DNA of 64,000 nt from Fragilaria crotonensis (taxonomy: Eukaryota > Bacillariophyta > Fragilariophyceae > Fragilariales > Fragilariaceae), in assembly GCA_022925895.1 (NCBI GenBank), contig JAKSYS010000017.1, positions 1 to 64,000 on the forward strand, read 5' to 3'. The notes beneath the pieces were generated by a model. It ran no database searches and was not told the origin of the DNA. It saw nothing but the letters and a program-made list of their open reading frames with translations. Below are positions 13,864 through 37,909 of this stretch, piece by piece (position 1 is the first letter of the stretch; every line of letters starts with the position of its first letter). Both the position numbers and the translations under genes were made by a program.

Positions 13864-14347
13864 GAGACCATTCGGGGATTAATTCGATGTGTCGATCAAG
13901 CCGGCCTAGCGTTATCTGGCCGTTTCACTCTGGCATTTTGTAAGATGACATTTTCATTCTTGACACAGGAGTAGATAACGGTCAAGTCCAATTTTCAAAT
14001 CCACATAACTTGACGAATTCTTGCAACAACGATACAATCATGCACTATGTTCTTCCATGGGTGGCAATGAATGACATAGTGCACGCTTTTATCGTTAATC
14101 TCATTTTTGACGAAATTCTCACTGACAGCCTTGACCTCGAACCGACAGGAAAATTCCAATCGTGATTTTTTGAGAATCATGAATACTTAACCAATCTTTT
14201 TCAACACTTAGCCAATTTTTTTCAATATTATATCTACATTTCTAAAGTATTAAGATAAAGAATATGCGTTATTCTTTGCATTGGCAGGCGTGAAAATATG
14301 ACTCATAACCAAAAATTGACACACCGATTTAATCCCCGAATGGTCTC
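13864..14347. mobile_element. TA-flanked MITE, GAGACCATTCGGG family
   Basis: The terminal inverted repeat GAGACCATTCGGGGATTAA, extending with a few mismatches to about 32 bp, is present at both ends. The dinucleotide TA lies on each side (13,862-13,863 and 14,348-14,349). Length is 484 bp with no gene. The TA duplication suggests mobilisation by a Tc1/mariner-like or other TA-targeting transposase. A second family member lies at 62,463-62,782. Confidence 0.8.
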
Positions 14348-14536
14348 TAGTCGGTCATACCGGTTAAAAACGGTGCATAAACTGTCGCGTGAGTACAGAG
14401 AGTGCTGGATGATTTGGTACTGTACCCCTGTAAAGTACTATCAAAGAGGTATGCATAACTTTGGTCGTAAGAATCAACATATGACATGATGACAACAAAT
14501 TCTTGCGCTGCAATTTATACATGTGCAAGTATATTA

Positions 14537-15084
14537 CTATCGCCTGGGATGCCTTCATGACTAGTGCTCGTTGCTCTACGGCCCTCGCTCATTCCACCAC
14601 TCGGTCAAAACTAGTCCACAACTGGTTAAACCTGGGATCTCAAAGGGCGAAATTTGGGAGTGGAGGTACTACCTCCGAGATTGAACGCCGATGTCCATAC
14701 TGCAACAAAGCTGAGGACTTTACCCATCTGCTGACCTGTGACGATCCGCGTGCCCTCAAAGTTCGGTATGAAGCAATGGTCCCTTTGCGAAAAGCACTAT
14801 GTGCGTCTGGCCAAGGTGGCTCCGCACTTCTACGAGCTATCCAAGCATGGACACTCACTCCTCTTGCTCACATCACTTTATCAGCTGGTGACAATATTTT
14901 AAATCTTCACGGCTCAGTGGTTATGGCGCTGGAAAGCCAACAGCATATTGGTTGGGTCCATTTCTTTCGTGGCTTTGTCAGTCTGCACTGGGGCCATGTT
15001 CATCCAGCAACAGATACAACACTGCACGCAGACCGGTGCGTACAGTCGGAGAAGACATTAACCACAATGATCACTGCTGTTCAA
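14537..15084 (+). mobile_element. LINE-C, left part (C-terminal pol fragment)
   Basis: This is the start of a 5'-truncated LINE. The flank ATGTGCAAGTATATTA at 14,521-14,536 is repeated at 37,894-37,909 as a 16-bp target duplication. The open frame (14,503-15,093 including flank) encodes the region after RNase H, with a Cys/His motif, CPYCNKAEDFTHLLTC, near 14,695. The coding frame breaks off at 15,084, where LINE-B is inserted, and resumes at 37,236. Confidence 0.8.
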
Positions 15085-16919
15085 TATATATAACCTAATT
15101 ATAGGGTTAACACCGTCACAGTCCTTTTGTCAAAAACTACGTGTGTACCCCGGTACGGCGAACCTTTACAGATCCGCGGAACCTAATAATGTTCAATCGT
15201 GTCTTCACGTCTGTCGAAAAAACTCAATGTCTCCAAGAGTCGTCATCACTGGTGTCAGAAAAAATCTGTCATCCTCGTTTGGGTAGTGCCATCTAATTCA
15301 AATTGGGCTCTCGCCTTTCTCATGTAATGCAACCAGCGTCGTCGCGAAGAGCTCGCGTTCACAATGTCACCAAGTGGTCGTTCGCAGAAATGTCTATCGG
15401 CCGCGTTGACCATGTGAGCTTGTTCATGGAGTCTCCTCTAAGTCAGGGTTCCGGAGTTGCTTGCATACTACGGACGTCGTTGAATGTAGGTGGTGGTTCC
15501 GAGCTGCCCACAACTGCGTGCTCAGTGTATGGACGGCCTTAAGCACCTTCCGCATGGTATAACCTCCTCTGGCCTCGTTATATACGCCTGAGTCTCCGTC
15601 CGGTTGCGACGCCAGTTCACTCCAGGCAACCGAGAAAAATCCGCGTGATGCAGCTGCCCACCCGATGCGAGTTTGTTGATGCTGGAGAGCGAGTTCGACA
15701 TATGGAACTTGGTCCTTGGGTACCATGGACATGTCCACTGTCCCTGGCTCCTCGTTGATCCAACACAGGAGCTGACTTTTCAGCGTGCGAGTGGCTGATG
15801 TCGCTCCAATCGCATCCATTGATTTCCGAAAAACTTTGATGGCCTGAATTCTGCCCGGATTCTCCTTGCATTGCAGGACGTGGTCGGATGTTTCGTCAGT
15901 GTGTAGAGAGCATGGGCATAACTTCAGAGATGTGGCTTTAATAGTTGCGACTCGGTTCCGACGATCTCCCGTATGTCGTTGGTCGTACATCAGTTTCGTT
16001 TGTGCCACCTGTTGCGATGGCAGCAGCGATCTGCAAAACTGACCCAGCACCTTAATATCAAGCGTGTTCCACACTTCGTTGGACCACCTATGTTTCGATT
16101 GTAGGTATGCACGGAGATGGTATCCGTTGATGTGGAATCGGATACACGCCTCAACTTGGCCGACCTGTCGAACCCCGTTGATACGCACAGAAACTCTTTC
16201 CTCCGGAACGTGATCCGTCTTTTCCCGCGATTGACCACTTGTCCGGTGATCCCTGAACCATGTCGCCAATTCATCTGCCCGATTATTCCGCTTTACATCG
16301 AGTGAGTGGGAGCCGGTGAGTTCCTTGTCTGATGACCTTTAATCCACTTTTGTGATGATCGTATACCGGACTCTTGCTTCAGACATCGAATCTGCGGCAA
16401 GAAGTCGGCGTTCTCCGGTTGACGTCTGCATGGTTCGTGGACTTTTGTGTGTTTTTCACGTTGGCCAATGCCGCTTTGCTGTCGCAGACCCATCGAAACT
16501 TACACTTATATTTCAATCCCCACTGTCGTACGAACAGTGTAAGTAGGAGCATCGGTGCTGCGAACCCTGCGATCTCGCATCGCGTGGAATTCGCCACGTC
16601 TCGAGGTCCATCTACAGGCCCTGCGCCTTCGAATAGGACAGTGTTATCGCTCGTGCTGATGGTCCACCCAAAAGTCCCCCTGATGTCTTTCAAACCGCCA
16701 TCCGAAGCTATCGTCAATTTACCTTTCGATCGGCTGGCGTTCCACACAGCCGAATCGTCCACTCGCTGACTAATATGAGTCAATAAGCGCCGTTGACCGT
16801 GCGGAAGATGGTTGATCATGTCCGCTAAGGCTAGATCTCGACTTCCTTCGATTGGTACTGAAGGCGACTTTAGCCGCGCTTTTACCTCTCGCAAACTGTC
16901 ACTTGGTACACGTTTCCAG
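15085..16919 (-). mobile_element. LINE-B, 3' part: RNase H and C-terminal domain
   Basis: Minus-strand LINE inserted in LINE-C, with target duplication AATGATCACTGCTGTTCAA at 15,066-15,084 and 37,217-37,235. The RNase H domain is read near 16,740-16,400 (IASDGGLK, then TFGW and the segment around CDSKAA). A frame change near 16,290 leads into a 281-residue frame ending at 15,424 that holds the motif CPCSLHTDETSDHVLQC. The 3' untranslated region runs to 15,085 and ends in a TA-rich tail. The 5' part of the same element is at 36,796-37,216, because LINE-A was inserted in between. It is 5'-truncated and not autonomous. Confidence 0.85.
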
Positions 16920-18709
16920 TGCGCCGTCCACATACATTGGATCCAACACCCGTCGCATCGATTATATGTTCGGATGTGCGAGAACGATGTCAGCATTGAG
17001 CCGCCAAGGGACCCTATCCTACTTCGAAGGACCTCAATCTGACCACCGTGCCTTGTACAATGATTTGAATTTATCTGAACTTCTAGGAGCAGCGTCCACG
17101 GAACAAGTCTTAGTATCTGCTCCACGTCGATGGTTACGGAGCGGCAACCCTGAATCTGTTGCACTTTACACAACAAAAATGAAAGCCTACTACAGGGATC
17201 ACAATATGGTTGAACGTATCGACAAGCTCTTTCATAACCATAAGGATCTACCTAGTTCCCAGGTACGGAAACTGCTCAACCAGTGGGATTCAGATCAAGG
17301 CCGAGCGATGAGAATGGCGGAGTCGGCACTGTCACAACGTCCGAGACCATACGTGTGGTCTCCGAAGTTGCGGAATGCTGGTGTCGTACTGAGATACTGG
17401 AAGCTGCGACTTAGGGAAATCCATTACTCCGAGGACTACGGCATCACCTTTGAAAGATGGGAGCGTCAAATCCAGCAATATGATCCTTCTTTTGTGCTAC
17501 CTGACAGACACGCGCAACTAGATTTAGCGAGCATTCGTCGTCAACTAAATAGTGCACATAAAGCCCTCAAGAAGCTTCAGAAAAACGCTTCTTCTCATAG
17601 GGTGCACAGCTACGAGGAGTTACTTGACAAATATAATTCGGACACAAATCAGGCTACTCAAAAGGAATCCGAAAGACGAGCTAAAATTGTATCGAGGACA
17701 ATCAAAGGTGAGGAGTGCAAGCAGCTATATACAAAACTTCGGACGATTGTGAAGCCATCGGAATTTTCGTCTATCTCCAAAATCGAAATCCCAAGAGCGA
17801 ATACATCATTATCGACTACTCTTCCGGGTCATGTGCATTCCGTACTTCAAATGGATCCCGAGGCCCTTGTTTGGGACACCATTATTTCACGGGGAGGATA
17901 TCGAGAATCATCTGCTACATTTTAACAGAGAGGCGTTTCGGGCAGCGTCCGCTTCTCCCTGTGGGAGCGGCGTCATTCATGATGCATTATCGTTTACCAG
18001 TTTATCGGACGATGCAGAGGCTTTCCTATACGGCAACACTCCCCCCGCATGGTATGGCGACAATGAGCTTCTTCGAGAGTTTCTCGCTTCTTTTCATATA
18101 CCAGAGACAGTACTGTCGAGCGACCCTATTAATCTGGAGATCACTACGGACGACGTCATCAAAGGTTTTACATCATGGAAAGAAACAACAACGACATCAC
18201 CATCAGGACGACATCTGGGGCATTACAAGGCGTTGTTGCAGGATCCAATACTTTTGAACTGCTTTTGTAAGTTTCTTAACATTGCAATATCGCGGGGCAT
18301 TGCGCCGCAGCGGTGGTGCATGGCGGTTAATGTTATGATCGAGAAGGACCCTGGAAGACCAAGGATAAATCGCCTACGGATTATACACTTGTTTGAGGCA
18401 GACTACAATCTTTTCCTTAAGATTATGTGGGGCTCGCGTTTGGTCCAACAATCGGTGGCTCTCAATCTCCCTGAACGATGGACAGCATGGATCAGTTCCG
18501 GGAAGAAAAACCATGGATCCTGTGATGTTAAATCAGCTCACAACGGATCTTTGTCGTGCACTCAAGGTAAATTACGCACGTTTTGACAACGATGCTTCAG
18601 CTTGCTTCGACCGTATTATCGTTGCCTTAGGTATGCTTGCGGCACGGCGCTGCGGTATGCCGGTTGAAGCAGTCCGCACGCATGCACAGGCCCTGGAACT
18701 GATGCGATA
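16920..18709 (+). mobile_element. LINE-A, left part: end of endonuclease and start of reverse transcriptase
   Basis: Plus-strand LINE inserted in LINE-B, with 16-bp target duplication TGGTACACGTTTCCAG at 16,904-16,919 and 36,780-36,795. It is truncated inside the endonuclease domain, and the remaining end shows RIDYMFGC and QSDHRALYNDL. A linker and the RT fingers follow in two frames (16,852-17,925 and 17,831-18,586), with the segment around GRHLGHYKALL, RIIHLFEADYNLFL, and then FDNDASACFDRIIV. The reading breaks at 18,709, where the Plavaka-like transposon is inserted. It continues at 33,574 in exact register with the homologous LINE-D protein. Confidence 0.85.
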
Positions 18710-19245
18710 GTCATCAGAAGGTGCAGAATGTTAACTATGTCATTATATGTTAACTTTTTTGTGATATGTGATACATAAATTGTCTTTAGTCGCAATTATC
18801 TTGTTACAATTGAATGCATTTTTGCTTAGAAGTTATTATATTAGTTTGTTCTTACAGTATATACTTGAAAGTAATAATATTGATTGTTACGTTAACAAAA
18901 TATCAAATTAAAGCATTGTAAGACATAATATGTTTGGTTATTATGCGTCACATGCAAATAAAGTGGTTAAAAATTCATCATATACATTCTGATCTTACCA
19001 TCATGGTTTATTGAATGACCTACGCTTATCACGCACTCCTTTTTTCAATTGAACGGTATGTATCTTACATCCCACATTTTTGTTATTGGATCGGAGAAGG
19101 GGATTACGAACGAACCATTTCTGGCTTCATTGGAAATAATCATTGTACACCAATCATTTCACGCCAATTTTGTTGATCACAATAAAACATTTGTGTTCTG
19201 TTCTCATTACTCTGCGCGTTAACCAAATCATCAGCAGGGATCAGC
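18710..19245. other. Left subterminal region of the transposon
   Basis: AT-rich non-coding DNA with repeated GTTAAC words (for example near 18,732 and 18,751). By analogy with other DNA transposons this would hold transposase binding sites and the promoter of the transposase gene, which is an inference. Confidence 0.45.
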
Positions 19246-22200
19246 ATGTCAGTGTCAACTAATGCTTGTGCCGTTTGTGGAAAGAGTTTCAAGAGGCTTC
19301 AGTCCCACCTCGCTCAAAATTTGGCATGTAAATCATTCTACATGTCACGTGTCAATGCAGCAGCTGCAACAGTGGCACCCACCATCCCAAACGACAGCAT
19401 TGAAAACACAACTAATGCGTCGCAAGGCGGAAATGGTACCACTTTCCCGAATTCGAGGACTTCACTCCGTGGGAGTGGTGCATCTGTAAGAGGAGAGGCG
19501 GGGGATCCTCTGCATCACGACGTCAACGATTTGAACGCAGTTGACGATGACAACTTTGTGATGTTTGACGACAACGATGATGGCGACGCTGGCAATCAGG
19601 ATGCTTTCGAAAAAACTGAAGAAGAGGACGAGGAGGGTCCTGATCTTGGTGTGTTGGATTTGTGTTTGGAACTGTTCAAGCTGCGAGCGAACCCACTAGG
19701 TCTCGCGCGATTTTCCCAGGAGGAGAAGGTCCTAATTGAGTTATTGGATCTCCTTAGAAAGCTGCACTGTCCTCTCAAAGCATTTACCGTCATACTGAAG
19801 TGGGCTGCCAAATCAAATGCAAGTGGTCATGTGTTCCGCGAGGGTGTTCAACCAACTCGTGAGAAGGTAATTGCCAAGTTGTACCAAAGGTATAACATGA
19901 ATGGACTGATCCCCAAGGAGAAGAAATTGTATCTCCCTTACACGCAGAGGATAGTGTCCATGGTTTTTTTTGATGCCCGCGAGGTGTTCGCGTCGCTTCT
20001 CTCATGCCCCACACTTAATCAGGACACAAATTATTTTTTTGATGAAGCAAAGGATCCGTTTGTTGCACCACAAGCATCCTCCGATGTTGGTGACATACAC
20101 ACAGGTCGTTGTTATAGAAAGACGTATGATGCCCTGATAAAGAAGCCCGGTGTTGACATGCTCCTACCTTGTGTCATGGCGATGGACAAGACCCACATCG
20201 ACATGGCCGGACGGCTCCAGATGGAGCCCATAACAGTCTCGCACGGCCTTTTGAACCACATTACGCGCCGCCTCCCAAGCGCCATGCGCATCCTTGGATA
20301 CATCAATCACAGCACCCCCGCCAACCTCCCATCGGATGCCGAAATTGATCCCAAGTTCAATGCACCCGCAGACTTGCCAAAGGTGTGTACTGTGTCAACA
20401 ACCCAATTCGGTGCCCCGATGAAAATATCAGTTGGGCGACTTTACTCCTCAACGAGATGCACATGCAGATCCAGTTTATTCTCGAAGAGTCTGGTTTTTT
20501 GCAGTTACAAAAGCACGGCTTCCGATGGAATCTGCAGTACAATGGAACAATGCACCCCGTCGTGTTCCACCCGTATGTCCCGTTCATCATTGGTGACACA
20601 GAGGGTCACGACCGCCTATGTGGGCACTACACCGCCCGATTTTCACAGATCAAACAACTTTGTCGCATTTGTGAGTGCCCTACATACTTGACTGGTTACT
20701 CGAAGTCTAAGTTTCCCCATCGCCTTCCCAGAAAAATGGACACCCTTGTACGCAAGGGTTTGACCAATGAGCTCCAATTGCTGTCGCAGACCTACCTTAA
20801 AAACGGCTTTGCCGGGGTTCGCTTTGGTCTGCACAATCAGCGGGGCATTTTTGGTGCCTGTCCGGGTGAGATGCTGCACTTGATTTCTCTTGGTTGGTTC
20901 AAATACTGCCTGCAGGCTTTCTCCACCCAAGCCGGTCCCAAGTCCAATGCATTGAAGGAGTACGATCAACTGTGTGCAAAATTGGGCCGCAAACTGTCAA
21001 GACAGAGTGACCGCGATGTCCCGCGAACCAACTTTCCCAAGGGATTCTCATCAGGAACCAATCTGATGGGACACGAGATGGCGGGTTGCCTTTTGGTGAA
21101 GTTATTTGCGTTGCACACCACCTGCTTCCGCGCTATCTTCGATGTCGGGAAGAAGGAACCGAGACTTGGGGTTCCCGACCAAAGGCTTCGTTATGAAAAC
21201 CATGTCACCGATTGGATTGACATCGTGACCGCTCTTCTAGTGTGGCACCAATGGATGAAGCAACCGTCCATTCCAAAGAAAATGGTGAAGCGTTCACACG
21301 TGGCAGTTCAGTGGCTGATGCGTGTTGTTGCTGAAGTGGCACCTCGCCCAGGAGCAATGGGAAACAACACGATCAAGACACATTTGGTCCTGCACCTGTG
21401 CGAGGACATTCTTGACCACGGTGTCCCAGAGAATGTAAACAGTTCGTACGCGGAGTCAGCCCACATTCCACTTGCAAAGGTAACATCACGGAACACCCAG
21501 AAACGAGCCGTTTCATTCACCAAGCAAGCTGCCCATCGTTATGTTGAGAACCTTGTTGTATCACTTGCTTCCGCGGACATGGACACTGACTAAAAAAGCG
21601 ATGCCTGCAACAGAGCTGGTCAACCCAATGCATTACTTGTCGACGGCAAGGGTGGCCGACATTTCAACCTTTCATGGAAGACTGGTGATGAATTTTCAGT
21701 GTGCCGCTGGACTCACCCGTCTCGGTGATAACATGGAGACAGCCCACCTTTCAACTCGAGTGATGGAGTTCCTGAGTCAACACTGCCTGCCCAAGGTGCC
21801 ACAGCACTCGCTTCCATGCTTCACATTGTTTACGGACCGCAAGGGCAACAAGTACCGGGCTCACCCCTGTTACGATGGCAAAGCCTGGAACGACAGCGCG
21901 ATGATCAAGTGGGAAGGATACCCTCGCAATTATCCAGCGTTCATCCACACCTTTGTCGATCTTCGCGGGCTTCCAAATGGAGAGCGCATTAACATCAAAG
22001 CAAATGGGCAGAAAAATTTGGAAGCCGGATTGTACGCTGTCGCCCATTCGTTTGATCCAGTTTCCATCGGTGACCTTGACACTCCAAACACTCTCATAGG
22101 GCGCTACACCCCACATTTCCACTCACCCAACGAGAGACATCCGACCTTGTTCCTGGTGGACGTCAAGTCAATCTTATCTCCAGTGCTTGGCATCGAAGAC

Positions 22201-22614
22201 GTCCCCCCATTCGGAGTAGAGAAAGCGCCGAGGCGCAAGCGGTGTCACCTGTTTTTGATCCGTCGGAAGGCGGAGTGGCCCCAAGCGTGGGATTCTCTCA
22301 TCAATAAGTGTCATCACGATTTGGAACACGACGTGGACGATGACACTTGGTTTGAAGAGGAGTATGAGAAAGAATTTGTCAGCCGCCTGCCAAGCGGCCG
22401 GGAGGTGCATAGGGTCAAGACTTCCGAAGAGTTTGGAGCCGAGGTTGCTGCAAAGAAGGCCGAAAAGGTTGCCGCCAAGAAGAAGAGGGAGGACACCGCC
22501 ACAGAGAAAGCGGCTGCAAAGGCTGCGAAGGCTGTGAAGGCCACCGCCACACAACAGTCCATAGGGAACTTGAAACGCAAAAGGGAAGCTCCCGTGAAGA
22601 CAAACAAGGGGTAG
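19246..22614 (+). CDS. Plavaka-type D-D-E transposase (with intron; reading split)
   Basis: It cuts and rejoins DNA at the transposon ends. The N-terminus has a zinc-finger-like motif, CAVCGKSFKRLQSHLAQNLAC, typical of Plavaka proteins, and then an acidic linker. The catalytic core shows AMDKTHID near 20,180 (first Asp), IIGDTEGHD near 20,590 (second Asp) and YAESAHIPLAK near 21,460 (Glu), all in the order and context known for Plavaka. The C-terminal part (21,541-22,614) ends in a Lys/Ala-rich basic tail. A likely intron of 74 or 86 bp begins GTGTGT at 20,383 and ends at 20,456 or 20,468. Either choice joins the first two frames in phase. A further frame change near 21,590-21,720 lacks an obvious intron, so this copy may be inactive. 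A KDZ-type assignment is less likely. Confidence 0.7.
20383..20468 (+). other. Candidate intron in the transposase gene
   Basis: The donor GTGTGT follows the codon AAG. Two acceptors, ACGAG at 20,456 and TGCAG at 20,468, both restore the downstream frame in phase 0. The implied length of 74 or 86 bp fits diatom introns. Confidence 0.5.
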
Positions 22615-22745
22615 CTAGGCAGTCCTTAGGGTGCCATCGATGAGAGTACCAGTAGAAGGAATAGTTTCAGTATTCAAATCGAACATGTTGTTTATTTTTT
22701 TTGTTTCCTTGGTATCCTGTACCTTCCACCAACCTCCAGGTCAGT
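22615..22745. other. Spacer between transposase gene and Gypsy insertion
   Basis: Short non-coding stretch after the transposase stop. It ends with TCAGT, the left copy of the Gypsy target duplication. Confidence 0.6.
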
Positions 22746-23129
22746 TGCCCTACGCGCGAAGTAATCAGTTTTATTTTGGAGGCTAATTTGTAGCTAGTTT
22801 TAAAGGATTAATAGTTGCACCTTATTAAAAGTTATGAGACTAGTTTTTAAAACAAGAGAGCAGTCCCATCCTTGGTGGGATTGGACTGTTCTCTTTCATT
22901 CATCTAGGAGACTCAGTGAGTCTCCAAGAGATGTCAGACAGTTCTCATTCTACTGTTGTACGGTTGTACTGTTGTACAGGATCAGTGTTCTATTGTTGCA
23001 CTGTACTATGGTATTACTAGTCTACCGGTATATCCAAGTACTATACATGGCCATTGTATTGTAGTACTGGATACTAGTAATATAGTATACTGTATCGCAC
23101 TACGCTAAGGGCACGTGCGGTGTACTGCA
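22746..23129 (-). repeat. Gypsy LTR (3' LTR in element orientation)
   Basis: 384 bp, apparently identical to 27,596-27,979. It starts TGCCCTACG and ends GTACTGCA on the plus strand. Confidence 0.95.
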
Positions 23130-26100
23130 CTCGCTTCCCTAATTGGGCGGTACGCGTTCTTTATATGGTGTTAGTCGACGTATGTTGACACGTTCATTGA
23201 CAATGCCACGTTGAATGCGTACTGTACCATTAGCATAGGTTTCAGTAATCCGATAAGGTCCCGTACGTGGGGCGGATAATTTGGAGATCAGTCCTGGTTT
23301 TCTAGTAGGACTTTTTCGCCAACACGGTACTCGTGTTCAATGCGTTTAGCATTTTCCTTTTATTATTGGCGTTAATAGTATCTTGCTTACGTTGTCTTAT
23401 CCTAGCCCAATCCGTCTTTAATTGGATGGGCAACAACATGTCGCGTCCAAATACTAACTGTCCGGGTGTAGCATCTAATGTAGTATGTACTGTACTACGT
23501 ATTGCCCACGCAGCTGCACTTAGGAACGGTCCCCAAGGGTCATTCGCATCGAGTTCTTTTTTGTTCGAGTTCGAATGTCCGAAGTGCATTACCCAGTACT
23601 TGATGTACTCGTTCTACAATACCGTTTGATTGTGGGTTGTAACTGGATGACGGTTTTTCTTTCATACCATAATTCTCGCACATTTGTTTGAATTGTGCTT
23701 TGAATTCGGAACCGTTATCATACCCTATATGTTGGGGTCGTGGATATCTCGTCAACCACGTATTATTAAACGCTTCCATAACAGTATGTGCGTTCTTATC
23801 TGGTATTGCTATGACTTCGAACCATCCTGTTACGGGATCAATCATAGTCAACGCACGAAGTGTATGCGTAGACGTTGGAGTACGTACAACGTATGGTCCA
23901 ATCAAGTCTACGTTTACACGAGACCAGGGAAGTTCTTCAGCTTCCTTAGGAGGTAAGTGTCCATACTTCTTCCTTTGTTTCTTAAATAGTTGACACGTAC
24001 GACAACGTCTTACAGAATGTCTCAACGTGACTACGTAATTTTGGCCACGTACATGTTTGTCGTATCGTTGCTTCAGTGCGTGATTCGCCTGGGTGTGCTA
24101 GATACTCATGATACCAAGCCACTACGCGTTGTTGAAGTTGAATAGGAATATATATTTTTCCTTGGTACGTAATGACCTCAACTCCTTCAATTGTTTTGGT
24201 ATTGAAGTTCTGACTTTTTGATTTCGTACTTCTTCGTTTAAGCTCATTATCTAACCGTTGGTATTTAGCGATTAGCATAGGACTTAACGGAAAGTCAGTT
24301 TCTTTAACGTCTGTTTTTGTCATGAAGATGTAAGCCATCGTATCATTTGTAGGCTCTGTTGGTAACTTCTCATTGAAGTTCGCATCTAATCTTGACAAGG
24401 CGTCAGCAATGACGTTCTTTTCTCCTTTTATATGTAGAAAGGTAGGTCCAAACTCTTCTATCAGGAGTCTCCATCGTATTATACGATCAGTGGACATTTT
24501 CTGATATAGGAGATTCTTATGATCGGTATGTACTATCAGTTTTGACCTAATAGTATATTTTGAATTCCTTAAGTGTTTCTACTATGGATAACAGCTCTTG
24601 TTCACCAGTCGTGTAACGTTTTGAGCGCTGTTAAGTTTCCTACTGTAGAAAGCTAACGGACGGTCATTTTGCATTATGACTGCTCCCAGTTGATAATCAC
24701 TGGAGTCCGTATAAATGTGAAAGTCTTTTGAGAAGTCAGGATAAGCCAGTAATGTCTCTCGACTTATTATGGCCTTAATGTCTTCAAATGCTTTCTGTTC
24801 TTTATCGTGCCAAATAAATTTAGCTTTGGCAGAACACAGCGCCGTAAGCGGTGCTAGTATGTGACTTCTACGTCGCCACATGTCACGGTAGTAATTGATC
24901 ATACCTAAGAAACGTCTTAACTGCCGTTTGGTAGTTGGTGGTGTCAGCCGCATAATCGCTTCCACTTTCTTAGGTTGAGGTTGGATACCGCGACGAGTAA
25001 TCCAATATCCTAAGTAATCAAGCTCGGTCACAGCGAACGAGGATTTACGTAGGTTAACGGCAAAGCCAACATCAGTTAGGCGTTGCAACACGAGTTCAAC
25101 ATGCTGAAGATGGTCCTCGTAGGAACCTGCTGTTGTAATCAGTATGTCATCTAAGTACGCACGCACATTAGGCAAATCGCCCATAATGTCATTAATTATG
25201 GCCTGAAAGATGTCAGGACTGCCATTCAAACCCATAGGTAGGCGACAGTAGCGATATTTGCCCCAGGGTACAATCATTGTACATAGATAGCTGGATTCTT
25301 TATCCAGGACAATATGGTAGTAGCCCATACTTAAGTCCAGAGCCGTTGCCCAATTAAACCCTTCAAGTTTCTGAAGAAGGTCTGCAATCTTGGGTAACGG
25401 GTATGGTTTACGTTTTATGTACCTATTAAGTACACGAAAGTCCGTTAGGACTCGAACGTCACCAGTCTTTTAGGCTGTATGAGCGTTGGTGCCGCCCACT
25501 CGAGTCATTGCACTTCGTTAATACTCCTATGTCACATAAACGTTGAATTTCTTTCTTCGTTGTTTCCTCGTAGCATTTTGGTACAGGAACGGACGAGCGT
25601 GATACGGCTTCTCATCCTTACTTAAGGGCCGTAGTTCGAGATGTACAGGCGGTACATTGAGTACGCCCAGTCCTCCACTAAACAACTTCGGATACTTTCG
25701 TAGCGAACGTACGAGTTGTTTTTGTTGATCGTTACTTAGGTGCGTATCCATGTGTGCGTAGTCATCCAGATCTAACGCACTATAGTCTGCATCCAGTATA
25801 CGTTTCTGCCTCGCTTCTGCTTCCTTGAGTACCGTAGGTTCGATACTGTGGTAGTAGATAGCTGTAGCATTCTGTAGATCGGATATTACGTGTTTTTCTT
25901 TCATGGGAATTTCTACACCTTCCCATACTATCCGTTGTGTATTGAAATTAATTTGATACCCAATTCTGATAGTAAATCTGCACCGATGATCATGTCATAC
26001 TGTGCATTCTTGCGCAACGTATGTGTGTCCTCGTGACACACCCATTGTACTATCTTTGACGTACTAAACTCGGGTAATTTGAATTTAATTTCCCGTTGCA

Positions 26101-27595: not shown

Positions 27596-27979
27596 TGCCC
27601 TACGCGCGAAGTAATCAGTTTTATTTTGGAGGCTAATTTGTAGCTAGTTTTAAAGGATTAATAGTTGCACCTTATTAAAAGTTATGAGACTAGTTTTTAA
27701 AACAAGAGAGCAGTCCCATCCTTGGTGGGATTGGACTGTTCTCTTTCATTCATCTAGGAGACTCAGTGAGTCTCCAAGAGATGTCAGACAGTTCTCATTC
27801 TACTGTTGTACGGTTGTACTGTTGTACAGGATCAGTGTTCTATTGTTGCACTGTACTATGGTATTACTAGTCTACCGGTATATCCAAGTACTATACATGG
27901 CCATTGTATTGTAGTACTGGATACTAGTAATATAGTATACTGTATCGCACTACGCTAAGGGCACGTGCGGTGTACTGCA
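27596..27979 (-). repeat. Gypsy LTR (5' LTR in element orientation)
   Basis: 384 bp, apparently identical to 22,746-23,129, and followed directly by the TCAGT target duplication. Confidence 0.95.
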
Positions 27980-28058
27980 TCAGTTGCCCGCACCTGCCAG
28001 CCACCAAAACCAGCGGCACAACGGAGGGAGCTCAACAGTCAGCTCAACAGAAGCGAAC

Positions 28059-30442
28059 TCAACAGCAGGACAACCGACACCCGCAACCACGGCATCCCCG
28101 GATTCGATCCGAGGCCCCCCCCCCACGGGGTTTTCTCCGCCTCCTGTTCGGCCGCTTCTTGCGATCCACCACCGCTTTAACAGGAGAGGGCTTTCCGGGA
28201 CAGAAAGCCTCGGCACACGCGGCACGCCCCGCCTCAACAATTTTTTCCTTTGCTGCCGTGAAAGTCCCATAAAGATAATTTCGAAAGGGAGACCCCCTCT
28301 TCCTGGCAACAAACCCACGTTCCATCCCGTCTGGACAGGAAACCGACGTGCAGTGCCGGATCACCCTGCCATCCCAGCTGATGGCCACGCCGTGGCCAAG
28401 TTTCACCGCCATGCCACTGAACTTGGTTTTTGTGCCCGGTCGCAGGCCGCACACACTGGGGATAACAAAATACCAGTTCTTCCCAAGGCCCCGCACCTCC
28501 TCTGTCCACACACTATAGCCCTGCGAGGCATCGTTCACGTCGTAGTGCGAGGAGTTGCCCAGGTTTATGCTCATGTCGACGGTGTATCCGACCCGTTGTC
28601 TACGCTCTTGCGCTTCCATTTTCCTCCAAAGTTCCTTGCGAAGGCAATCGCCACCGTCTCTTTCGTCATCGTCATCATCATCAACACAATTCTCACCGTC
28701 GCAATCCGACCCACCCCGCCCGCACGACCCACCCGTCGGAAGGGCAACGCCATCCATCGGTGGCACCGGACTCAGTCCCGAGTTCTCCTCGGTGTCCCTT
28801 ACCACGGAGTAGACCACAGGGAAACAGCGACTCCCAAGGGTTGCCAAGTCAACCACGAGACCCCGGAGGACACTATCCGAAACACATCCATTGGCTGCGT
28901 ACGGAATCTTGCTGTGAACAGCAACGCCCGTCGGGGACTCCTTTTTCTCGATTCTGGTGCCCAGTGCAAACATTGAACCGACATCGGACGACTTCGCCCT
29001 GGCAGTGCCCTTCGCCCCCGACACTCGAATCTGACGACATCGCAATGTCAACCGCTCCAGCAACTCAAGGTGGTCATCGCACGCACTGATCTTCGTTACG
29101 TTCCGGATGGACACGACAGACTCACGGTTTGGAATTCCATCGACGCGAACGTGAACATCAATGAAGTGAGTTTCTTCTGGATCGATGATCCAGCAAGACT
29201 CCTGCAGATTGTAGTGGTGGCTGCCGTCAACGTAATGCCGGCAATCAAACTTCGCACTACTAGAATTTCTGAGTTTGTTGCGGAATTCATGAGCGCGGTA
29301 GTCAGCAGGGACAGTCCGCAGGTCAATGCCAGCAATGAAATCTGGTGGTAACGCAGGTAATTCAGCATCACTATTGTGAACGGCCCTGTGCACAACCCGA
29401 TTCTGTAGGGAACTGGTAGGTACCCCGTGGAGATCCTCCACGCAGAAACACGGCGGTTGTCGCCTAGACCGCGATCCGAATAGAACCGCCTCACAAAGCT
29501 GTCACCACCAAAGGCATACAACGGAAAGTCGTGTTCTGTTCCCTCCGTCCTCTGCAAGCGGAGCCAGCTCATATCATACGCTCTCAGCGTGCCGGGCACG
29601 CCAGCATCCCCAACGTGACGGTCACGGTGACAATAGAACACCCCACACTGAGGTAGGAACAGAATTGCAGCCCGGTAGAAATGATCCATCCCAGGGCCGA
29701 TGTCTTCCGGTTTGCGTGACAGGGCATGACGGACTGCATCGCAGTCATCGCAATGCGAACGACGGCCGCCACCACCACTCCTCCCCCCCTTCCCACCGCC
29801 AGTCAAAACGGCCGGTGAAGGAGCCCGATTGAGTATCACGTCCATCACGTAGAACTCGTTGAGGAACTCCGACTGGAGTCCGGACTCCGGGAACATGTCG
29901 GCAGCGGAACGCAATTGAAACGGCTTGCATCCGAAAGCCTTTGCAATGACGCTCACGGGAGTAAAACACAACAATTCGCGGCACTCCCCATCACCACCCC
30001 GCATGGCCTTCACAAATCTCCGCCTGAATGCAATCCTCTCCTCCGGAACAACGGCCATGGACAACAGCGTCATAATGCGCTGATGAGTTGGGCGATTCTG
30101 CCTCTCGTCTCGCCCAGTAGGAAGGAATTTCCCACTGTCCGCTCCCGGAACACGTGGCGAGTTCCCCAGGTTCCTGACACACGCCATAGTTGGGGAAGTC
30201 CTATTCCCGGTCTCCGCAGCCTTCTTCTTCGCGTTTTTCCTCTTCTTTGCGAGCTTTTTCGTCTTCGCCAACCCCACTCCCACAACCTTCCTCTCCGCCA
30301 CAACCGTCATCCCGTTCTCCACCACAACATCCACGCCAACGCAACCAACGTCGCGTCGATTTGGCGACATCGGGCTCTCTACTGCTTCCTGGCAGGTAGT
30401 GAGCCGCACAATGCCAGTTCCGTGTCCTTTTTGACAAAGCAA
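28059..30442 (-). CDS. Transposon-borne protein with 2-oxoglutarate/Fe(II) dioxygenase-like C-terminus (TET/JBP-like candidate)
   Basis: Two overlapping minus frames (30,442-29,096 and 29,441-28,059) look like one protein of about 790 residues with a frame change near 29,370-29,440. The N-terminus has a basic stretch, KTKKLAKKRKNAKKK, that fits nuclear targeting. A long unassigned middle and an acidic run follow. The last third reads SINLGNSSHYDVNDAS, WYFVIPSV and HGVAISWDGRVIRHCTS. The HYD (28,536-28,547) and the His in GRVIRHC (about 28,354), with an Arg twelve residues later, match the HxD...H...R layout of 2-oxoglutarate/Fe(II) oxygenases. Transposon-linked TET/JBP enzymes, which oxidise 5-methylcytosine or thymine, are known from fungal DNA transposons. 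Assignment to that group here is my inference. It could also be another cupin-fold enzyme. Confidence 0.5.
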
Positions 30443-30542
30443 TCAACGCGCTTCCTGGCGCGGACTGTCAATTTGTCTCAAAGGAAGCGAGAACGATCCG
30501 ACGGCGACGTTATGTTGCGAAACACAATCAATGAACGAAGTA

Positions 30543-31535
30543 CTTCATAGAAGTACTCTGACACCAGATTGTGATTTTTGGTGTCAGTGCGCGCAGAAAA
30601 CAGGCAAAACAAGATACACTGCGTGCTATGCAAAAAAAGGAAACTTCACACATGGGAACTCCAAGCAAGACCTTTAAATGAGGTGCATTTACTTAGAGTA
30701 ATTGCACGAGTACAGCCATATATACATGGTTTTAATACATAGATTTAATTCGTAGCAATGTTAATTAAGTATCCGTGTATATGTATAATAAAATGACATA
30801 CACATCGCATAAGTATGTTGTACTTAATCAAGTTTAGTAGTCAAAAAAGAGAATGCTTATTTACATGTATGTATGATTTATTAGTTTCCCATGACTGGAC
30901 TGCATACTGCTACATGGCCGTTGTACTGCAGCATACGTATCGACAGTAGTCGAATTTTTATGATTCGTGTCTCAAACTGTCATAAGATTCATAATCCACC
31001 TATGTATTCAACGCGACACACATATTCAAAGATATGTTAATAAATATATTTGTATACACCTTACTAATAAACATATATACACGAACTAATAGTACCACTG
31101 CTGCGTACGACATTTACCGGTACTGACGATACATGATTGGCGAGGCCGCCCATGCAAAAACAAGACTGCACTACACACATGTCGTATATATTCAAAACCT
31201 TACACATATCCATCCAAGTAGATGAAACTGTACATTTACGACGTTATGTAGTGAACACGCAAGTACATTCAAACAACATAAATGACATGCACATGTTAAA
31301 TTATTGTTAAAATTGAACATAATAAATTTATGTTCAAATCATGTACAGTTACATGATGAACAAACAGGACAACAAGTGCACGCTTCCAAAACTGTTCTCT
31401 GATTCAAAAAAAAGAGTACATGACTAAAAATTGCAATCTTGTTATTGAACTCACACTTGCTGCGAATTGAAACGTACCAGTCAGACTTGTTTCTAACCCA
31501 TTGCTTGCTTTTTGTACTTGTCCATTGCAGCCGTC
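30543..31535. other. Divergent intergenic region inside the transposon
   Basis: AT-rich and without a gene. It separates the minus-strand dioxygenase-like gene from the plus-strand third gene, so it probably contains both promoters. Confidence 0.5.
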
Positions 31536-33132
31536 ATGCCTCCAGTGGTGACAAACATTCTGGAATCCTCACCAGCAACGCGCACTCGGAGCAAACAAGG
31601 ACAAGGCGGACGCGTTCGTCTAGACAGGAACGGTGAACCCGAAACACCAACGGCGCGGACAAAGAGGAAACTGAAAGAGGAGAAAAGGAAGGCGGCAAAA
31701 CGTGCAAAACTATTGGAGACAGGACAGCAAACGGACCCTGTGGAGACAGTTGAGCTGGAGAAACCGGGAAAAAAGCGTGTTGTTGGTTCGGGCGGCAAGG
31801 CAAAGAGGAAGAAAACAAACAGGGCAAAAGCAAAAAGGGCTCCGCCCCCACCACGCAACAACCCGGGTTCTGAACGAAAGGACTCGGATGATGACTCGTC
31901 CTACAAATCTACTGATGGCGACAGGGATGATGATACCGAGGCGGGGGGTAAGAAAGTTCCTCGAACCCCCGATGCTATTCATGACTCACCAGATGACAAC
32001 GAATCATCGGGCGATGACGAGGATTCTCGTCGTCGCAGCAACTCCTTGAAACGTCAGCAACAGAATCGTAAGGAGTCGAGCCGCCGTGCCCAGGAAGGTG
32101 CGGCTGATCCTCCGAGCGAGGACGAGGACGGAACTTCGAAGGCGTCAAAGCCCCCAAGCAGGGCAACAAATGATTACAGGCCGCGGGAGTTGCAGTTTAA
32201 TGCAGAGTTGGAAGTTCCGACAGTGGAGAAGAATGTGGCGCGGATTACGATATTTGTCAAAAACAACTTGTTCCGTAGGATCAAGTTTGTAACCAGTCAA
32301 GCATCATTCACCAAGGCTTTTCAAAAGGTGAGAGAGGTGGAGAGGCCCAAGAATCCGTACGTGTTTCAATTGACATACGAAAAATGTTTCACTAAGGCGT
32401 TGAACCAAAAACGAAGTACTTGCGAACAGTCCGGCTCCCAAATTGCAAGGGATGCAATCAAAGACTTCAAAAAGCGCGTGAAGAGTTCTTCACATTCGAG
32501 GAATTCTGCAAGCTCAGGAGATCTACGTCAGAAAGGGAAAAAGGGCGTTCTTCTGGTTCTTCAACAACTTCTTGGAATGTGTTTGTGGTGCGAACGTCTT
32601 GAGAAATGCAAAACAACACAGCTCATTTCGGCGGCGCGAGAGAGCAATGGATCAAAATTGTGAGTGTGAGCGACGAAGCCTTCGGTTTGTTGCTAATCGA
32701 CAATTACTTGGAGAAGTGGAAAGTCGTAGCGGAGGAGGAGGCAGGAGGCACTGGACCAAGAACGGAAAACAACAGCACAACAACAGAAGCAGAAACAGGC
32801 AGCGGGCAGGGAATACAAAAGAAAGCAAGAAGAATGGCGGGAAAGTATACTCAAAAAAAGCGGGACAATGCAAGTACAGTGGGTGGAGTCGCGACGGAAT
32901 TAGCCAGTTCAATGCATTGCGCAAGGTGGTTGAAGAGGACAGGGCGTGTCCGGAAGCCGAGCAAATGGAAAAGGAGTTGATGCGTTTCTGCAGGGCAAGC
33001 GCTGGAAAGAAGAATGCTGGTGATAATCAGGATGACGAGCTAGATGCAGGTGGTGCAGCGCCCAATAATACGTTGGAGAGAGCGGAAGCAATGGTGCCTG
33101 TCGAGGCGGACTGGGACTCAGATGATGACTAG
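31536..33132 (+). CDS. Third transposon gene, unrecognised, charged nuclear-type protein
   Basis: ATG at 31,536 (MPPVVTNILESS). The first 220 residues are disordered and highly charged, with basic clusters (KRKLKEEKRKAAKRAK) followed by acidic Ser/Asp runs, which fits a nuclear or DNA-associated protein. A folded-looking segment begins near 32,175 (RELQFNAELEVPTVEK). Further segments with aromatic and hydrophobic patterns are found in other frames: FFTFEEFCKLR near 32,485, WIKIVSVSDEAFGLLLIDNY near 32,650, and ISQFNALRKVVEEDR near 32,900. The protein ends with DWDSDDD. About four frame changes are needed to read all of these, so the copy is decayed or affected by base errors. I do not recognise the family. 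Its position suggests an accessory protein for transposition. Confidence 0.5.
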
Positions 33133-33573
33133 ACGTTGCATCGGGTGCCTTCTCGTTAGAAGTGACAACAACATCAGCAACTCGTAATGAAACAATATAG
33201 GTGGATTTAATCAACAATTGTGATTTGTACAATTGAATTTAGGAGTAACATATATAGTTACAAAGAAACATAGTCAACAGCATATATATCTACTAAGCAA
33301 CATAAACGACAACAAATATGGTCATTTTACAACGGAATCACTTAACAAAGATGGTGTATTGTCGTTATAAGAAAGTAACAAGAAGCAAAATATGTTAACA
33401 TAAATGTTTATGAAACAAGTCAATATGTTGCTGATATGGTTAAAAGTAACAATATATTGTTGAGCTAACATATTTGTTTACTCGACCATGTACATTGTAA
33501 GAACAGGAAAGACGGACACCATTATCCGGTAACACTGAACATGTGAAAATTTAGTTACCATATTGCACATCAG
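33133..33573. other. Right subterminal region of the transposon
   Basis: AT-rich non-coding DNA with ATGTTAAC and related words, resembling the left subterminal region in composition. Confidence 0.45.
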
Positions 33574-36500
33574 TACACGGTTAAAACGGTGTACGGGGTT
33601 TCGGAGGAGTTTTATACGGGTACATCAATGGAGCCTCTTTTTGGGACGGGCCAGGGTAGTGGTGCATCGCCGGCGGTATGGCTATCCCTCGTGGTCATCC
33701 TACTGAACACTTTGGACAGATTGGTACCAGATAGAATCAGTTTCCGATCAGCGGATGGAACAATACACCATGAACGCCTCGTTGACGCATTTGTCGACGA
33801 CACAGCGATTGGTCTGACGGATGACGGTACACGCTCGCTCACCCAGTTGGTTTCGGCTCTCAAATCAGCAGCCCAAACATGGAGCAACTTCTTCACTACT
33901 CGGGAGGGGCTTTGAACTTATCTAAGTGCTCGTGGTACGTTATGTACTGGGATTGGCGACAGGGGCGACCTCAAATTCGAGAAATCTCAGAGAACGACCC
34001 GACTATAACTCTTTTCCAACAGACCAACACACTACCGAAAGTTCCAATTAAGCGATTAAAGCTATCTGCGTCGACGCGAATTCTGGGGGTCCATCAAACA
34101 CCTTTGGGTGATTTTTCGGATCACATAACGGTGCTCTAAAAGAAGGCGGACCAATATTCTATCTACCTTCGCTCCCCCCGCCTTACTCCTTTGGATGTCC
34201 GAGTTTTTCATCGATCCATCTACTCGCCCGCTATGAGGTATTCTCTTCCGGAGTCGCTGTGGATGAAGAGGAACTTGATCGCATCCAATCTAAGGTTATG
34301 CCTGTTATCGTACAGAAACTCGGCCTCTCGAGTAAACTTCCAACAGCTGTAAGGTATGGACCGCTAGCAATGGGAGGTCTCGATCTGTTGGATCTTCGCA
34401 CCGAGTGTGGAATTGAAATGATAAAATACTTTCGGCATGAAGTATTCGGTGGCACAAAAGTCGGTAAACTACTTCTCCTTCAGGTTCAGGCATCCCAATT
34501 GGAATCTGGCATGTCGCATTTTCTATTGGAGGAACCATCGATTCACATTCCGTATCTCACTCCAACATTGATTCTATCCATGCGGCAGTTTATGTCCAAT
34601 CATAATATCAGCATAACATTGACGAACCAATACAAAGTCAATCTGCAGGGACGTCATGATAAATACATCATGGATACCGCTCGACTACAGAGATACAGCA
34701 CCAATCAGCAACGCGATTTGAACTTGGTCCGGATTTATCTGCAGGTGACGACACTTGCAGATCTTGTCGATCCATCTGACTCATTCAAAATAGCGGAGTG
34801 GGCTCTTGACGCCCACAGACCAGTCAACTTTGTCGCTCAACCTGCATGGCCTCGCCAGAAAATTTGACAGCATCACAACGTCGTATGTGGAGGAAGTATA
34901 TTTCCTCCCAGTTTCTTCGGTATGGCAGATTTTGGCAAACGTCTCCACGCCCATCTTTGAAGGAGATCAAAGAGAAGTTATCGAACTTGTCTCCAGCCGC
35001 TACGAACTTCTCGGAGGCAAGGACATCTCTACCCAGACATCGTCGGAAACGACTCCTTGCATATGTTCGTCCCATGGTATCGGACGCTGATCTCTGGGAC
35101 GAGTGCCAACGAAAACAGACTTTGACGATTGCATCCGACGGCGGACTCAAAGGACGACAAGGCACATTCGGATGGGTTCTGAGTACACATCGTAACAAAA
35201 TCTTGGCTGAAGGCGCGGGTCCCATCGATGGGCCATTCGACACTTCAAGCTCCACTAGGAGCGAACTTGGCGGATATGCAGCATCGTTATTATTTTGTCT
35301 TCTTTACTTCACACGATATGGGGCAAACGACATCAATGCAACTTTCGGTGGGTCACCGATAGCAAGTCCGCAATAACAAACGTCAGCCGACAAACCTCTC
35401 GGGTGGTCAAACAGAGTCGTCAACCACACAATTCCGACTATTTAGGCCTTATTCGGCAGGAGACTGTGAACCTGCGGCGCACCATCACTCCCGTATGGGT
35501 CAAGGGGCACCAGCGTGATTCCTCACGAAGCGTGACAAGACGATCGCATGATATTCAATGTAACAATCGAGCGGATGAGTTAGCAACTTGGTATCGTGAG
35601 CATCCATCACATCGTCAGTCAGTGGAACACACCGAGCACACGCCTGAGTCAAGAGTCTCGATCTCCATAAATGGTTTGCGGCTCACGAGCCAGATTGAAG
35701 AAAGCCTGCGCTTCCACATCAATGGATACCATCTTCGACAATACATACAGTCGAGGCAGCGATGGCCGGATCAGGTGTGGCAACGAGTTGACTTCGAGGC
35801 TTTTGGCTCTTTTCATCGGCGACTCACATCATCTGAGCAAATTGCACATACAAAGTTCATTTTCGATCAATGGCACACTGGGAAACAGCGATATAACGTG
35901 GCCACCATCAAAGATGCAAAACTTCAACTATGCCCGTGCTGTCGAACGGTCATTGAAACATCTACACATGTCATTCGGTGTCAGCAAAACCCGGACCATG
36001 CTACAGCACTCAAGGAGTTCAGACGGAGGATGTCACCAGAGGAGTATCATCCTGTGTTTCAGTTCTTGAAGGATGACGTAATTGCATGGATCGAGGATCG
36101 AGAATTCCATCCAATGTTGACGGATTTTTCGGGGGAAATCAGAGACAGTCTTCGAGTCGCGCTTCGAGACCAGACACAAATTGGATGGGACAATGCGATC
36201 AAAGGCTACTTGAGCGTGGCGTGGCGGGATACTGCTCAAAAATCTTTGTACGGAAATTCACTTGACAGTCAAGCAGGAAGGGTCTTCACAATGTTGAGTC
36301 ATTTTGAGAGCGATGCATCTTCTGACGCAACAACTGTGGAAATCGAGGAACAGAGTCTTGCACGAATCTAATGACAAGGAACAATGCGAAATCCGTGACA
36401 CCGAACGTGCCGAAATATGCAGTTTGCATGCGCAACCAGAGCGAGTACCAGCGGGCGACAGACATTACTGTGAACGACCACTATCCGACATACTAAAGAT

Positions 36501-36779
36501 GTCGCCAACGTCACGACGACGGTGGCTGCGATATATGAATATGGCAAGGGCTCGAATGACTCATGAAAACGACAAATGTTAATGACGGCATTTTTCGTCC
36601 TGTGCCGAAGGACAGGTAATGCATGACCTGGAGATTGATTTATTAGTGTATGGGGTCAACGGGGTTTAGTTTAGATTACGGTCGCCTACCGGTTAAATGG
36701 TACGGCTGCGGTGGGGTACACTCTTTGGTCTTGACTAAAGACCGAGGGCGGTGTTAACCCGATAATTAGTTCTTATATA
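33574..36779 (+). mobile_element. LINE-A, right part: RT palm, RNase H, C-terminal domain and tail
   Basis: It continues the LINE-A polymerase after the transposon insertion. The RT palm has GTGQGSGASPAVW and the active site FVDDT at 33,790-33,804. The thumb and connection regions follow in two frames to 34,867. RNase H has IASDGGLKGRQGTFGW near 35,130, TRSELGGYAASLLF, and the segment around WVTDSKSA near 35,350. A C-terminal Cys/His motif, CPCCRTVIETSTHVIRC, lies near 35,930. Coding ends at 36,582. The 3' region ends with GATAATTAG and a short TA-rich tail at 36,779. There are at least four frame changes, so it is inactive. The RNase H and tail closely resemble LINE-B, so both belong to one family. 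Confidence 0.85.
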
Positions 36780-36795
36780 TGGTACACGTTTCCAG

Positions 36796-37216
36796 AGCGA
36801 CCCGTATCGCAGAAACTGAGACGAGAGATACCGTTTCCACAGACGGCGTTGCGTTGACGTTGGCTCTTCTAGTCGTGGCCACCCCGGTTTTGGTGCAAAA
36901 TTGCTGTGTCGTACACCCGCTAGCGCTTCCTTTTCAATACACCGTGGATCCTGAACAGCTCGCATTTCAGAGATCGTAGTGCATTGAAGGTATATTCTTA
37001 CCAAGTTGATGTCTCTTTGTTGGCTGCCCGTGTACTGAACCAATCGCGACGGTTGCATCACAAATTTGTCATGAGTACCCAACTTCTCAAGTCGTAGGTC
37101 ATCTGAAACAGACATTGTCAGGTTATGGTTCGAGAGGAACTGGCGTAGAGATGAAATCCATGTCGGTGTTAGATACGAGATCTTGAGTCCGGGGAACTCC
37201 AATAGTGGTTGGGGAT
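36796..37216 (-). mobile_element. LINE-B, 5' part (RT connection region)
   Basis: Minus-strand frame 37,313-36,735 includes YLTPTWISSLRQFLSNHN and SSQFLRYGSLWKRVP. The last residues lie on the 16-bp duplication caused by LINE-A. The same protein continues on the minus strand from 16,919 (LWKRVPSDSLRE). LINE-B therefore starts, 5'-truncated, at 37,216 and was later split by LINE-A. Confidence 0.85.
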
Positions 37217-37235
37217 AATGATCACTGCTGTTCAA

Positions 37236-37893
37236 GACTACTCCATGGCCATATGGAGGAGAAGAAATGACATACTCCATGCATCCAACCCTGATTCTCT
37301 CGCCATTGTCCATGCTTCCCTCAATGCCGCTATCTCACAGCTATACAGTGTGAGTTCTACTCTGTCTTCCATACTTCAAAGCTACTTCACTCTCCCTCTT
37401 GACGATCGCCTGCGTCAGTCTCCCCGCCAACGGAAACGCTGGCTGCGCCTTGCGCATCTTGCTACATCCCACTCGTCAGCAACTGGGACACGCCAACAAC
37501 TCCTCTCCACCTATTATCCTCACGCACCGGTGCCAACCAGCGACATCCGTGACCACCAGACGGGACGCCGAGAGTCCTGTCGTGCCTCGATCCTGATACA
37601 GCCGCCTATCACATCCTACTTCGGACCACCGCATACGTGATCACCCTACCGTAGCGATATGAAACTCTGTCATTGTTTCATCGCTTTCTATATCCATCCT
37701 TCGAGTTCCACGGTTCTGGTTCTCTGACACACAACTATGCCTCCCTGCCTACCACCTGCTGCTGCATTATGTCTTATTGCTTCTTTACCTCAATCTGCTC
37801 CTGATCAATTCGCCCGCCTTCTCCGGCTAGCAACATGAAATGCATCCGCCTAGAAATAGACATATGATAAACATGTATAGAAGAGTTTAGTAT
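37236..37893 (+). mobile_element. LINE-C, right part: end of pol and 3' region
   Basis: The frame continues from 15,084 across the LINE-B target duplication (MITAVQ is shared) and reads DYSMAIWRRRNDILHAS, ending at 37,640. About 250 bp of 3' untranslated sequence follow, then the right copy of the target duplication at 37,894-37,909. LINE-C is the oldest and outermost layer of the nest. Confidence 0.8.
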
Positions 37894-37909
37894 ATGTGCA
37901 AGTATATTA

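Follow-up and report, generated by a model that had tools for sequence, protein, structure and literature searches.

Nests of transposable elements (TEs), and the ordering of insertions by which element contains which, are standard in the literature (REANNOTATE, PMC2672092; TE nests of Drosophila, PMC1794594; nests of long terminal repeat (LTR) elements in plants, PMC6911290). Plavaka transposons, which are placed in the CMCT clade, have likewise been characterized: C(2)C and H(3)H motifs are described for this clade, and the termini are 5'-CATCA..TGATG-3' in PlavakaB and 5'-TGT..ACA-3' in PlavakaA (PMC12730594). Among the matches listed the Plavaka literature is mostly fungal, with reports also from Amoebidium and a green alga; Plavaka transposases outside fungi have thus already been published (Amoebidium, PMC11244446), and no novelty is claimed here for a non-fungal Plavaka element. 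The locus considered here is a nest of three long interspersed nuclear elements (LINEs), a Plavaka-like DNA transposon and a Ty3/Gypsy LTR retrotransposon in Fragilaria crotonensis (contig JAKSYS010000017.1, GenBank assembly GCA_022925895.1), of which the first 64,000 nucleotides were analysed and are called the window throughout. No paper on this locus was recognised, among the matches listed, in the literature on diatom nests, Plavaka, nested insertions and diatom LINEs.

The five mobile elements lie nested one in another, each with its own target duplication, and the nest is confirmed as real. Its five levels had been proposed in the original prediction, made from the letters alone, and all boundaries and duplications named there were found by exact string search of the window. 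From the outermost to the innermost the elements are:

14537-37893, plus strand: LINE-C, which holds LINE-B
15085-37216, minus strand: LINE-B, inside LINE-C, which holds LINE-A
16920-36779, plus strand: LINE-A, inside LINE-B, which holds the Plavaka-like DNA transposon
18710-33573, plus strand: Plavaka-like DNA transposon, inside LINE-A, which holds the Gypsy element
22746-27979, minus strand: Ty3/Gypsy element, the innermost, with protease, reverse transcriptase (RT), RNase H and integrase in this order and several frame breaks

Without their inserts they are 1,206 bp (LINE-C), 2,256 bp (LINE-B), 4,994 bp (LINE-A), 9,625 bp (DNA transposon) and 5,234 bp (Gypsy) long. The duplications, exact at every level, are:

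14521-14536 and 37894-37909: 16-bp target duplication of LINE-C, ATGTGCAAGTATATTA
15066-15084 and 37217-37235: 19-bp target duplication of LINE-B inside LINE-C, AATGATCACTGCTGTTCAA
16904-16919 and 36780-36795: 16-bp target duplication of LINE-A inside LINE-B, TGGTACACGTTTCCAG
18708-18709 and 33574-33575: 2-bp duplication (TA) of the DNA transposon
22741-22745 and 27980-27984: 5-bp target duplication of the Gypsy element, TCAGT

The three LINE duplications and the string TCAGTTGCCC each occur exactly twice in the window, at the expected sites, and not at all on the other strand. In TCAGTTGCCC, found at 22741 and 27980, only TCAGT is the duplication; the TGCCC that follows opens the LTR in the left copy and recurs by chance in the target in the right one. 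A sixth, outer level was considered and rejected: the joined outer flanks (200 + 200 bp) contain no long reading frame, and no repeat pairs both flanks in a self-comparison of the window.

As a chance control, two random 80-bp stretches were drawn 4000 times from the window, with positions 5700-11200 excluded, and the longest exact string common to each pair was scored. This string was 4 to 8 bp long in 3934 of the 4000 draws. Seven draws gave at least 16 bp, and all seven at least 27 bp; they are taken, individually unchecked, as draws that overlapped themselves or fell with both stretches in a repeat. The maximum in the remaining 3993 draws was 15 bp, reached once. The LINE duplications of 16, 19 and 16 bp are not due to chance, because they are far longer than the strings that random pairs have in common. 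The 5-bp and 2-bp duplications are too short for such a test, and these two levels are therefore carried by the identical LTRs of the Gypsy element and by the restored frame around the DNA transposon. Indeed, the TA duplication by itself is no proof of the transposon boundary, which is carried by the exact return of the LINE-A frame.

That an interrupted frame can be followed across an insertion is helped by the LINE neighbours outside the nest, which are uninterrupted and let some junctions be checked inside one sequence. LINE-D (54859-60905) is nearly intact and consists of an endonuclease open reading frame (ORF) and an RT ORF of 1553 residues with one frame break between them; LINE-E (42705-44621) is a shorter, related copy, 45% identical to LINE-D in protein. 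The frame controls were the LINE-D ORF at 56244-60905, open over 4253 bp, and LINE-E, open over 1914 bp. For each junction the join was also displaced by -30 to +30 bases, so that 61 joins were scored. The parts that had to be joined are:

14537-15084, plus strand: left half of LINE-C, a C-terminal protein part similar to the C-terminal parts of LINE-A, LINE-B, LINE-D and LINE-E
37236-37893, plus strand: right half of LINE-C, end of the ORF and 3' part, in which the frame resumes (joined ORF open over 948 bp)
36796-37216, minus strand: 5'-truncated start of LINE-B, whose frame continues into 16919
15085-16919, minus strand: 3' part of LINE-B, from the RNase H region (named by eye, no Pfam match) to the 3' tail
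16920-18709, plus strand: left part of LINE-A, end of the endonuclease region (by eye) and start of the RT, including one copy of the TA
33576-36779, plus strand: right part of LINE-A, with the rest of the RT, the RNase H region (by eye) and the 3' tail

When the two parts of LINE-A are joined across the DNA transposon, the product aligns with LINE-D and shows no gap where they meet; of the 61 joins the true one has the highest score (192; next 185). LINE-B joined across LINE-A is likewise gapless at its junction when compared with LINE-A. With LINE-C joined across LINE-B, the alignment passes the junction against both LINE-D and LINE-E, the true join being the best of 61 against LINE-E (104; next 97), and in a tblastn comparison with LINE-A residues 176-258 span the junction (29% identity, E = 4e-08). 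According to the original prediction the interrupted coding frame returns at every boundary; this holds for three of the four inner boundaries but not for the Gypsy element, which is located in the 205-bp gap between two convergent ORFs of the DNA transposon, 131 bp past the stop of the transposase ORF on one side and 74 bp from that of the minus-strand ORF on the other, and which interrupts no gene. A plus-strand ORF found mechanically at 27936-28976 crosses the right end of the Gypsy element; since its start lies within the LTR and it runs antisense to the minus-strand ORF, it is not counted as a gene.

All three nested LINEs are truncated at the 5' end, starting within the coding region (in LINE-A as judged by eye against LINE-D), and LINE-B and LINE-C are truncated beyond the RT region that LINE-A retains. 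Such truncation, together with target duplications of variable length, is what is found in LINEs. The family assignment starts from LINE-D, the upstream ORF of which matches Exo_endo_phos (E = 1.8e-12), and to which LINE-A is similar across the RT region (E 1e-32 to 7e-31). Protein identities are 44-47% between LINE-A and LINE-B, 24-38% between LINE-A and LINE-D (several stretches) and 29% between LINE-C and LINE-A. The final 67 bp of LINE-A and LINE-B agree at 51 positions.

Several observations speak against this account of the LINEs. The true join of LINE-C ranks only 12th of 61 against LINE-D, and against the LINE-A ORF at 35262-36371 it aligned before the junction only. The LINE-B join across LINE-A is 5th of 61 (270; best 276), perhaps on account of a small insertion difference between LINE-A and LINE-B further on. 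The LINE-B scan and the scan of LINE-C against LINE-D thus do not pin the cut; it is the duplications that fix it there. Moreover, neither the joined RT of LINE-A nor the LINE-B pieces gave a Pfam match above cut-off, and the assignment of both to LINEs would go back to their similarity to LINE-D, whose own RT matches RVT_1 below threshold (1.9e-05, 24.9 bits, cut-off 29.6). On these alignments the frame evidence is strong at the DNA transposon and supportive at the LINE-B and LINE-C junctions.

Since repeats are where assemblers fail, one or more of the boundaries might be thought to be false joins of different loci, and the several frame breaks of the Gypsy element despite its identical LTRs could be read error. 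False joins would, however, not be expected to produce exact duplications or to bring back the frame at three junctions, the window contains no N, and outside the nest there are unbroken ORFs of 4253, 1914 and 1419 bp. We therefore consider an assembly artefact highly improbable.

The DNA transposon, into which the Gypsy element is inserted, contains three gene regions:

19189-22614, plus strand: transposase region, three overlapping ORFs with two frame breaks, Pfam PF18759
28059-30442, minus strand: second gene region, two overlapping ORFs, no known family
31536-33132, plus strand: third gene region, two overlapping ORFs, rich in charged residues, no known family

The transposase matches Pfam PF18759 (Plavaka) with E = 1.5e-06 and 28.1 bits (cut-off 26.3) over profile positions 40-163 of 325; the read-through protein matches the same stretch only (27.9 bits), and the second and third ORFs alone have no match in Pfam. 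Motifs of the form C(2)C and H(3-4)H are present as CRIC and HLVLH between GDTEGHD and YAESAH in one ORF, where the second D and the last E were placed by eye and such short motifs can arise by chance. The TA at 18708-18709 and 33574-33575 is a target duplication of the 2 or 3 bp found in Plavaka elements. The ends are less typical. PlavakaB was rejected, as the left end GTCATCAG has CATCA two bases in but the right end ..CACATCAG is not TGATG; PlavakaA was rejected, as the ends are GTC.. and ..CAG rather than TGT..ACA. Fitting neither, the element is called Plavaka-like and filed in neither sub-lineage. A left boundary about ten bases further left, which by eye makes the ends more alike, was also rejected: it removes three LINE-A residues relative to LINE-D, whereas the TA boundary is gapless.

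The 8-mer ATGTTAAC, a motif picked after looking, occurs four times in the 64 kb (both strands), always inside the 921 bp that the two transposon ends cover together, and twice at each end. Its presence at both ends suggests that they belong to one element. When parts of this motif were compared with shuffled ends (500 each), the proportions were 0.054 (left) and 0.03 (right) for ATGTTAA, 0.002 (left) and 0.062 (right) for TGTTAAC and 0.28 (left) and 0 (right) for TATGTTA. Weighing against a single element is that these parts are only moderately enriched, as the left value for TATGTTA illustrates, and that the ends form no clean inverted repeat, their best short similarity (with a six-base offset) being equalled by 99 of 2000 shuffled pairs.

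With ends of this kind, and with the two right-hand genes having no known family and being tied to the transposase by position only, the region from 28 to 33 kb could be a separate element beside or inside the Plavaka-like one, that is, a sixth level. The return of LINE-A exactly at 33574 and the occurrence of ATGTTAAC at both transposon ends argue against this, and a repeat scan of 28-33 kb gave a single weak inverted pair with both arms inside (30041-30059 and 30913-30931, 19 nt, 84%); we consider a sixth level quite unlikely. Taking the 9,625 bp as one transposon, its TA duplication, its unequal ends with the common ATGTTAAC and its two extra genes of no known family might, tentatively, mark a Plavaka-like lineage outside PlavakaA and PlavakaB, in a host that is not a fungus.

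For the second gene (28059-30442, minus strand) and the third (31536-33132, plus strand) no family was found in Pfam or, for one piece each, in PHROGs. The second gene carries the stretch HYDVNDASQGYSVWTEE..NWYFV, and neither Pfam nor PHROGs nor PDB sequences matched it convincingly: the PDB sequence search gave only hits to caspase chains (E 1.8-2.1), which are taken as chance. A single-sequence structure model of a 405-residue piece had a mean pLDDT (predicted local distance difference test score) of 31.8 and was useless. A reading of the gene as a TET/JBP dioxygenase thus drew no support from Pfam, where no match came near the cut-off, nor from PHROGs, the PDB search or the model. By analogy with the dioxygenases on some fungal Plavaka elements, the second gene could have an accessory function.

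The innermost element is bounded by two LTRs:

22746-23129, minus strand: 3' LTR of the Gypsy element, 384 bp
27596-27979, minus strand: 5' LTR of the Gypsy element, 384 bp

The LTRs are identical (384/384). Between them, on the minus strand, RVP (4.2e-05), RVT_1 (6.6e-27), RT_RNaseH_2 (6.7e-19) and rve (6.6e-11) follow each other in the order that defines Ty3/Gypsy elements. Of the frame breaks in this copy two resemble lone in-frame stops, while the rest add up to between two and four changes of frame, and a natural gag-pol shift could account for one of these. Zero differences between the LTRs give a 95% upper bound of 0.0039 substitutions per site. In one diatom, a substitution rate of 4.77e-10 and an indel rate of 1.58e-11 per site and generation were measured (PMC6604790); if these are assumed for the host, the LTR bound allows only about 0.5 indel in 3,845 bp. 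This leans towards a copy that was already defective at insertion, or towards read errors, without being decisive.

With respect to the order of events, containment means that each inner insertion postdates the existence of its host copy. The original prediction had the order fixed with LINE-C oldest and Gypsy youngest. The sequence LINE-C, LINE-B, LINE-A and then arrival of the DNA transposon stands as the simplest reading, whereas the place of the Gypsy element as the youngest is not fixed, as it may have ridden in. According to the Drosophila nest paper (PMC1794594), even retroelements may arrive as a nest formed beforehand, but for the LINEs this is unlikely because LINEs are copied through RNA. 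For the Gypsy element the matter is different: it may have inserted into the DNA transposon at a different locus, the pair then moving jointly into LINE-A, in which case its insertion was not the last event. Cut-and-paste transposons can carry sequence between their ends, as the Drosophila paper also states; it regards the transposition of nested elements as plausible, with DNA elements as one route, and shows potentially transposed nests (PMC1794594). Such a composite would, however, span 14.9 kb, which makes joint movement less likely, and a plant survey with 26 similar pairs of nested LTR elements concluded that joint movement was improbable, these being retroelements and not a DNA transposon (PMC6911290). 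We consider joint movement somewhat unlikely. The best-supported order of insertion at this place is LINE-C, LINE-B, LINE-A and the DNA transposon, with the Gypsy element either last or arriving with the transposon.

From the observed boundaries and duplications, the frames restored at three junctions and the identical LTRs, we infer with high confidence a history of successive insertions, by transposition mechanisms that are known for these element types. LINE-C, 5'-truncated, would have inserted by target-primed reverse transcription, leaving the 16-bp duplication; LINE-B, also 5'-truncated, would have inserted into it in the opposite direction, and LINE-A, with a 3' tail resembling that of LINE-B, into LINE-B. 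A cut-and-paste transposon of the Plavaka-like (CMCT) type would then have entered at a TA within the RT of LINE-A. The Ty3/Gypsy element, perhaps already defective, sits between two of the transposon genes and would have entered either after the arrival of the transposon or earlier, riding in with it.

The nest had also been expected to give a clean time series of element activity, an expectation that did not hold up: the density of frame breaks ignores the order of insertion, the LINEs are only distantly related (LINE-A and LINE-B are 44-47% identical in protein), and no second copy of any nest family is at hand. Frame breaks were counted by minimum tiling with stop-free segments, and raw counts past the frame end were set aside (both of two for LINE-C and the third of three for LINE-B). 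Breaks per kb (number in brackets) are then 0 for LINE-C over its 948 bp, 1.04 for LINE-B (2), 1.47 for LINE-A (7), 0.59 for the transposase (2), 0.43 for the second gene (1), 0.63 for the third gene (1) and 2.08 for the Gypsy element (8). Frame breaks are no clock here, because the Gypsy element, the innermost and with identical LTRs, has the densest breaks and the outermost LINE-C has none. Scans of viral contigs with pieces of the transposase, LINE-A, the Gypsy RT, the second gene and LINE-D returned no relatives, nor did a genome-contig scan with the second gene; being made with single proteins, these scans reach close relatives only.

The window contains further elements outside the nest. 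Pieces of LTR elements lie on the minus strand at 50269-51690 and 62782-63738 (RVT_2, E = 1.5e-34; SH3_retrovirus, E = 1.2e-06), and we take them to be probably of the Copia type. A 359-bp element at 38295-38653 has 21-bp perfect terminal inverted repeats, CAGGCTGTGTTATTTTGGGAA, and the 8-bp CCTCACAC on each side, and resembles a small non-autonomous transposon of the hAT type. Three inverted-repeat elements stand in a row at 12847-14349. One is a fold-back of 598 bp whose arms agree to about 90%; another, of 336 bp, has perfect inverted repeats of 19 bp, and a third, of 488 bp, has inverted repeats of 35 bp (91%). At 5757-10921 there are two adjoining ORFs, the second consisting largely of SPTDSPT/SPTASPT repeats, with a stretch of about 200 residues nearly unchanged in both. 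ARAGORN found no tRNA in the window, and Rfam gave nothing at gathering scores.

Compared with described elements, the Gypsy copy agrees with Ty3/Gypsy LTR retrotransposons in domain order, in its 5-bp duplication and in LTRs that start with TG and end with CA; it differs in its several frame breaks. The nested LINEs agree with LINEs that carry an endonuclease of the Exo_endo_phos kind, for which LINE-D is the local reference, in protein similarity over the RT and C-terminal parts, in duplications of variable length and in 5' truncation, and differ in being divergent families. With Plavaka of the CMCT clade (PMC12730594) the DNA transposon has in common the Pfam transposase match, the C(2)C and H(3)H motifs and the 2-bp duplication; it differs in its ends and in the two extra genes matching no known family, and it is the part of the nest most deserving of further study. 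The nest as a whole is ordinary, a further example of a known phenomenon, and it is not claimed that five levels are new. At one locus it preserves a clearly marked record of the order in which several families of one genome inserted, and it also warns that nesting yields a partial order only. As in the known TE nests (PMC1794594, PMC6911290, PMC2672092), the insertions were successive and containment gives their temporal order; the nest in F. crotonensis differs from those nests in its mixture of three LINEs with a DNA transposon and a Gypsy element, each flanked by an exact duplication.

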